Shown here: piece after piece, positions 54,185-54,544 of the stretch
How positions within the stretch are numbered: position 1 is the stretch's first letter
How the letters are laid out: every line of letters begins with the position of its first letter
From: a virus
Strand: one strand, 5' to 3'
DNA length: 56,609 nucleotides
IMG/VR virus record: IMGVR_UViG_3300028615_000096
Location: 1 to 56,609 of that record
Position numbers and translations under genes: made by a program
Notes under the pieces: model-generated
Databases searched by the model: none
What the model was told of the DNA's origin: nothing
Seen by the model: the letters and a program-made list of their open reading frames with translations, nothing else

Positions 54185-54260
54185 GATCGCGTAGCTCAGT
54201 CGGAAGAGCATCGGTCTCCGAAGCCGAAGGTCGTGGGTTCGACCCCCACCGCGATCGCCA
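54185..54260 (+). tRNA. tRNA-Arg (CCG)
   Basis: Acceptor GATCGCG/CGCGATC, D-arm GCTC/GAGC, stem TCGGT/GCCGA with loop CTCCGAA, T-arm GTGGG-TTCGACC-CCCAC, G73, CCA. Its last CA starts the next tRNA. Confidence 0.92.
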
Positions 54261-54544
54261 CGCCGTAGAGCAAGTGTCGTTCAACTGGTGGCGCAGGAAG
54301 GCAGGGGACGCCCTGTTGGATCGCGTCGGCAATTGCGGGGCACGCAGTAGGGAAGCTGGATCTGCCACCACGACTGCACGCGATGCAGAGCCCGCACAGT
54401 GTGTGGCGTGGGACCTCGGGTCGCGCGTTTGCAGGGCTTGTAGCTGCGCGCGGAAGTGGTCAAGCCGCGAAGGTGGAACTGCTGGTGGAAAAGCTCGCTG
54501 CTGTGGGTCAGCAGAGGATGCAGGTGGGAATCCTGCCGGCGTGA
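54259..54544 (+). tRNA. tRNA-Pro (GGG) with a 221-nt D-loop
   Basis: Acceptor CACGCCG (54259-54265)/CGGCGTG (54537-54543), D-stem GAGC (54268-54271)/GCTC (54493-54496), anticodon stem CTGCT/AGCAG with loop GTGGGTC, five-base variable AGGAT and T-stem GCAGG/CCTGC all pair perfectly. C1-G72 and A73 are proline identity features. The T-loop is TGGGAAT. The D-loop (54272-54492) carries the insertion. ACA follows instead of CCA. May be intron-like, or inactive. Confidence 0.6.

Follow-up and report, generated by a model that had tools for sequence, protein, structure and literature searches.

A perfectly paired tRNA-Pro-like cloverleaf around a 221-nt D-loop in a phage tRNA array

Bacterial tRNA genes are described as structurally uniform, the sole significant exception being group I or group II introns next to the anticodon (PMC4033280; on the introns also PMC4090602). 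The known group I introns in tRNAs interrupt the anticodon loop, usually at 37/38 (PMC4033280, PMC4090602), in agreement with what the original prediction for the locus described here had stated. D-loops are 4–12 nt long (PMC5733544). Concerning phages, a 2014 review placed all phage group I introns known to that date in protein-coding genes (PMC3984707), and an escape from host defences that target tRNAs has been proposed for phage tRNAs whose anticodon loops are altered (PMC10264068, in which D-loops, T-loops and introns are not mentioned). Our search of the open-access literature yielded no account of an insert in the D-loop of a phage tRNA. The phage tRNA frame presented below, with a D-loop of 221 nt, fits neither the bacterial pattern (PMC4033280) nor that described for phages (PMC3984707).

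The locus is situated on IMGVR_UViG_3300028615_000096, a metagenomic IMG/VR contig with linear ends that was analysed over its whole length of 56,609 bases (the window). As the contig encodes major head, sheath, tail tube, tape measure and baseplate proteins, it can be attributed to a contractile-tailed phage. Its right end (49.9–56.6 kb) is a dense tRNA array with interspersed HNH endonuclease genes. ARAGORN identified a tRNA-Arg(CCG) at 54185–54260 and a tRNA-Thr(CGT) at 54550–54624, both on the plus strand, and the 289-nt spacer from one to the other is filled by a tRNA-like gene with an enlarged D-loop (54259–54544, plus strand), whose best fit is a tRNA-Pro frame with the anticodon GGG. 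The CCA of tRNA-Arg overlaps the first two bases of this candidate, and the sharing of its CA that had been predicted is indeed seen at 54258–54260; tRNA-Thr starts five bases past the candidate. The same array contains an intact tRNA-Pro(GGG) 0.5 kb downstream (55047–55121, plus strand, ARAGORN) and a tRNA-Pro(CGG) at 56067. The CCC codon is common in the phage, at 18 per 1000.

Several other features of the array were recorded. At 52989–53207, the 3' half of a tRNA precedes its 5' half: the former (52989–53024) lies flush after tRNA-Gly(TCC) and the latter (53176–53207) flush before tRNA-Gly(GCC). The anticodon stem of this tRNA is paired 5/5 and its acceptor stem 6/7 with two G-U pairs, and equal pairing was reached in only 4 of 992 mismatched combinations. 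Divergent tRNAs unseen by ARAGORN include a His(GTG)-like gene at 56238–56309 (T-loop GTCAGTA), an Ile(GAT) tRNA at 53348–53421 (T-loop GGCAGAA) and, at approximately 50829–50900, an Arg(TCT)-like gene whose D arm is unusual. The spacers 53818–53896 and 54047–54184 lie flush between tRNAs. Each is closed by a terminal stem of ~11 bp and has a more stable predicted fold than shuffled sequence (z ~ −2.8), and neither belongs to an Rfam family. An HNH endonuclease family is encoded directly 5' of tRNA-Asn(GTT) in the window (50351–50737) and in the loci L038, L039, L041, L043 and L045, and a fragment resembling a tRNA 5' half (~50313–50350) lies upstream of the window gene.

The primary structure of the candidate was examined in detail. 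The acceptor stem is formed by CACGCCG (54259–54265) and CGGCGTG (54537–54543, followed by A73 at 54544), and the D stem by GAGC (54268–54271) and GCTC (54493–54496). In the anticodon arm (54498–54514), CTGCT (54498–54502) pairs with AGCAG (54510–54514) around the 7-nt loop GTGGGTC (54503–54509), which holds GGG at 54505–54507. A 5-nt variable loop, AGGAT (54515–54519), precedes the T arm (54520–54536), in which GCAGG (54520–54524) and CCTGC (54532–54536) enclose TGGGAAT. Two bases follow the acceptor stem and one separates the D and anticodon stems, which is the spacing of a canonical 7/4/5/5-bp cloverleaf. All 21 stem pairs (7 acceptor, 4 D, 5 anticodon and 5 T) are Watson–Crick, so that every pair listed in the prediction of four stems closing across the insert is present. 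The D-loop (54272–54492) keeps A14, R15 and A21 at its ends and carries ~213 bases beyond the ~8 of a usual loop. T8, A14, A21, T33, T54 and A58 also match tRNA. With its default threshold, ARAGORN called the joined sequence tRNA-Pro(ggg) when the insert was cut out in silico. Reading the anticodon arm as His(GTG) was rejected, as this would require an 8-nt loop.

On the other hand, a number of bases expected in a decoding tRNA are missing. In tRNAs, T55 and C56 contact G18 and G19, and a pyrimidine at 32 and a purine at 37 flank the anticodon. Compared with TTCRANY, the T-loop TGGGAAT keeps T54, A58 and T60, but positions 55 and 56 are both G. Around the anticodon, G32 and T37 stand in place of Y32 and R37, and T33 alone fits. 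A73 is followed by ACA and CCA is not encoded, while the 221-nt D-loop lies far outside the canonical 4–12 nt with G18 G19. Neither ARAGORN nor Rfam RF00005 called a tRNA in the native candidate. Judged by its sequence, the candidate is no normal decoder. The original prediction of a working tRNA-Pro(GGG) with an insert to splice was not sustained, considering the lack of a known intron type, the abnormal T-loop and anticodon flanks, and the intact tRNA-Pro(GGG) nearby.

We then compared the insert with described systems. tRNA genes of bacteria and plastids with group I introns resemble the candidate in having a structured insert of ~200 nt and stems that are all kept, but their inserts lie in the anticodon loop and match RF00028, whereas the insert of the candidate is in the D-loop and has no match to any intron family. 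Rfam searches with permissive thresholds (RF00028 to E 10) gave no match to group I or group II introns over the candidate, while the same kind of search detected RF00028 in the tRNA-Asn of L062 (E 4e-13), a phage array reached through the HNH gene. The proposed scan with intron models thus upheld the earlier statement that no group I core is present. The group I intron of L062 (5987–6273) interrupts the anticodon loop of that phage's tRNA-Asn. In archaeal tRNA introns and permuted tRNA genes, as in the candidate, the parts of a disrupted gene pair to a cloverleaf, but these systems need a bulge-helix-bulge at the junctions together with its endonuclease. A bulge-helix-bulge was not detected at the ends of the insert, where the best candidates pair only 4/6 flanking positions. 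As neither an Rfam intron match nor a bulge-helix-bulge is present, splicing of a known type is unlikely. A tmRNA likewise has acceptor and T arms that close around a long internal RNA, but the candidate differs by its D stem and anticodon arm, and no tmRNA was called over it by ARAGORN or Rfam models; tmRNA genes surfaced in our array scan and served as an unplanned positive control. A protein-coding insert was also considered and rejected, the two ORFs overlapping the insert having no Pfam match.

Folding of the insert (54272–54492), the analysis suggested for it beforehand, gave a mixed outcome: it is predicted to fold by itself (−97.3 kcal/mol), but no better than its shuffles (z −0.9). 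The full cloverleaf lies only 2.9 kcal/mol above the minimum free energy, a low cost due to the insert folding as a separate domain. In the unconstrained ensemble, the probability of the D and anticodon helices is close to zero, and other pairings are preferred. As for homologues, none was found by BLAST against phages and plasmids, or by exact motif scans of IMG/VR and GTDB genomes. The locus was in none of 15 relatives of the phage collected by their sheath, only one of which had a detectable tRNA. One exact match to the anticodon-arm motif, in L037, was discarded, as it is not a tRNA locus. The candidate is a single example in the collections searched.

Phage arrays were collected through an HNH gene next to tRNA-Asn and through a tandem-tRNA pattern, which gave 82 phage loci with two or more tRNAs each and a total of 1138 ARAGORN genes. 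Above 40 bits, these loci contained just two further cloverleafs with an enlarged D-loop, and the claim that an insertion at this position is very unusual was supported. Both are Met(CAT) tRNAs with an extra hairpin in the D-loop, one at L048:9785–9877 (D-loop 28 nt, 44.6 bits) and the other at L061:7993–8088 (31 nt, 59.0 bits), and ARAGORN found no other tRNA-Met in the surrounding 8-kb stretches. Like the candidate, they keep the cloverleaf, carry a folded D-loop insert, reside in phage arrays and are not called by ARAGORN. They differ in that their inserts are ~20 nt rather than ~213, in isotype and in sequence, with no detectable homology. Hairpin-bearing D-loops thus recur in phage tRNAs, although rarely, with the D-loop of the window as the extreme case. 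A pattern scan for further Met(CAT) genes of this kind returned mostly tRNA 3' halves without a matching 5' half, which are probably phage attachment sites, and confirmed the L061 contig alone.

The arrays also contained tRNA frames of another kind. In eleven freshwater phage loci (L112, L119, L121, L122, L127, L130, L141, L146, L153, L158 and L163; for example L121:984–3290), we found modules of the form AGTCAGG...CCTGACT with the constant ends AGTCAGGTGGCGGAATTGGTAGACGC and ACAGGTTCGAATCCTGTCCTGACT. These are 78–184 nt long, occur up to eight times per array and share identical acceptor, D and T arms, while unrelated interiors replace the anticodon arm; ARAGORN does not list them. A total of 34 modules in 28 interior clusters was obtained, a figure that takes in the bacterial MAG contigs L167–L169 with the same frame. 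As these modules show, a tRNA frame can enclose other sequence in a phage array. They have in common with the candidate a tRNA frame around foreign sequence among the normal tRNAs of a phage array. They differ from it in that their anticodon arm is replaced and their D and T arms are canonical, whereas the candidate has its insert in the D-loop and is present in one copy. Further frames of acceptor, D and T arms around 53–95 nt of extra sequence were observed at L054:4387–4515, L060:3396–3533, L060:3878–4022 and, on the reverse strand, L123 844–945. Pseudouridine at position 55 is near-universal in tRNAs. In a phage array of ~34 genes (L053, IMGVR_UViG_3300033233_000006), nearly all tRNAs have G there, the T-loop being TGCRANY instead of TTCRANY.

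Taking these results into account, the explanation we tentatively favour, with a probability of about 0.45, is that the candidate would be a tRNA-derived, non-decoding 'tRNA-framed' RNA that keeps the insert as a D-loop domain. It would probably be transcribed with the neighbouring tRNAs, and the helix of acceptor and T stems may let tRNA end-processing enzymes release an RNA of ~286 nt. The insert would stay in this RNA, unspliced, as a D-loop domain, giving a tRNA frame around other RNA, for which any function would be putative. The flush fit between two tRNA genes and a cloverleaf score beyond that of shuffled sequences count in favour of such an RNA, as do the ARAGORN call after removal of the insert, the negative searches for introns, tmRNA and a bulge-helix-bulge, and the low energetic cost of the cloverleaf, and the D-loop hairpins of the two Met(CAT) tRNAs together with the 34 AGTCAGG modules are precedents by analogy. 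Against it, the candidate is a single example with no homologue found, a T-loop without T55 and C56 may escape recognition by RNase P or RNase Z, the best precedents carry their cargo in the place of the anticodon arm rather than in the D-loop, and the near-zero probability of the D and anticodon helices and the z of −0.9 for the insert are adverse predictions of the folding model. In a broader and rather unlikely version, phage arrays would use the cloverleaf as a frame for processing and stability that delivers other RNAs. The candidate would be the D-loop version and the AGTCAGG modules the multi-copy version with varied cargo, perhaps acting as decoys or regulators against host defences that target tRNAs.

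The strongest competing explanation, which we regard as a serious one although we lean away from it, is a decaying relic, in which a spare tRNA-Pro(GGG) had its D-loop disrupted by insertion or local duplication and is now drifting with no role. The intact tRNA-Pro(GGG) at 55047 fits well with a spare copy, the lost T-loop bases, anticodon-loop flanks and CCA with decay, and the tRNA with reversed halves is another rearranged tRNA in the same array. Moreover, the insert contains another sequence that resembles a tRNA 5' end, though less strongly (CACGCAGTAGGGAAG, 54341–54355, plus strand), scoring 29.2 bits with the same 3' half and expected by chance with a probability of ~0.01, and short imperfect direct repeats, GGTGGAACTGCT and GGTGGAAAAGCT, lie near its 3' end. 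These two features hint that the insert arose by local duplication. What inclines us to a structural role is the contrast between intact stems and missing invariant loop bases: 42/42 stem bases are paired, whereas T55, C56, Y32 and R37 have been lost, and uniform decay would spread changes to stems as well as loops. That the pairing of the stems was what drew attention to the locus weakens this argument.

A chance resemblance, in which two hairpins and a terminal stem in a GC-rich spacer mimic tRNA geometry, is improbable. The two spacers at 53818–53896 and 54047–54184 do close with long stems, the T-loop of the candidate lacks tRNA signatures, and cloverleafs with long loops are common once G-U pairs are permitted (~1.1 per window by chance), so that the strict fit alone counts. 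However, the candidate is the only all-Watson–Crick cloverleaf with a D-loop longer than 12 nt in the window, and none arose in 1000 shuffles of the array. Its log-odds score of 43.8 bits falls among those of the ordinary tRNAs in the array (24–63), while the best of 1500 shuffles reached 28.3 bits (Gumbel fit, P ~5e-4); these chance figures and those that follow apply to a finding picked from a larger scan and are uncorrected for that choice. With the 3' half fixed, an equally good 5' unit occurred at 1 in 21 million simulated positions, and mismatched combinations of 5' and 3' halves from the array's own tRNAs never paired as well (0/1056) as the candidate halves, which pair 11/11 across the insert. 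The matches at T8, A14, A21, T33, T54 and A58 also speak against chance, as does the fit of the ends to the spacer, which the chance figures leave out and which is further evidence. These results confirmed the perfect cloverleaf across a 221-nt D-loop as a real observation and, with 21/21 pairs and a score beyond shuffles, the preservation of the tRNA frame that had been proposed.

Still less probable is a true D-loop intron of an undescribed type, whose removal would yield a functional tRNA-Pro(GGG). Pairing of all stems across the insert, the acceptance of the joined tRNA by ARAGORN and the frequent use of CCC would agree with this. However, in addition to the negative results for group I, group II and bulge-helix-bulge, the joined tRNA would still have TGGGAAT, G32 and T37 and no CCA, and the array already contains an intact tRNA-Pro(GGG). 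Least probable of all is an artefact of this metagenomic contig, in which an assembly error or a population chimera would have brought unrelated pieces together in the D-loop. The short direct repeats nearby might favour it, but 11/11 pairing of the two halves across the insert would be unexpected in a chimera.

The surveyed loci suggest that phage arrays harbour a wider set of altered tRNAs, missed by standard gene finders. Should the RNA of the window be produced and retained, the role of phage tRNA arrays would extend beyond codon supply; if not, the arrays would show how tRNA genes break down.
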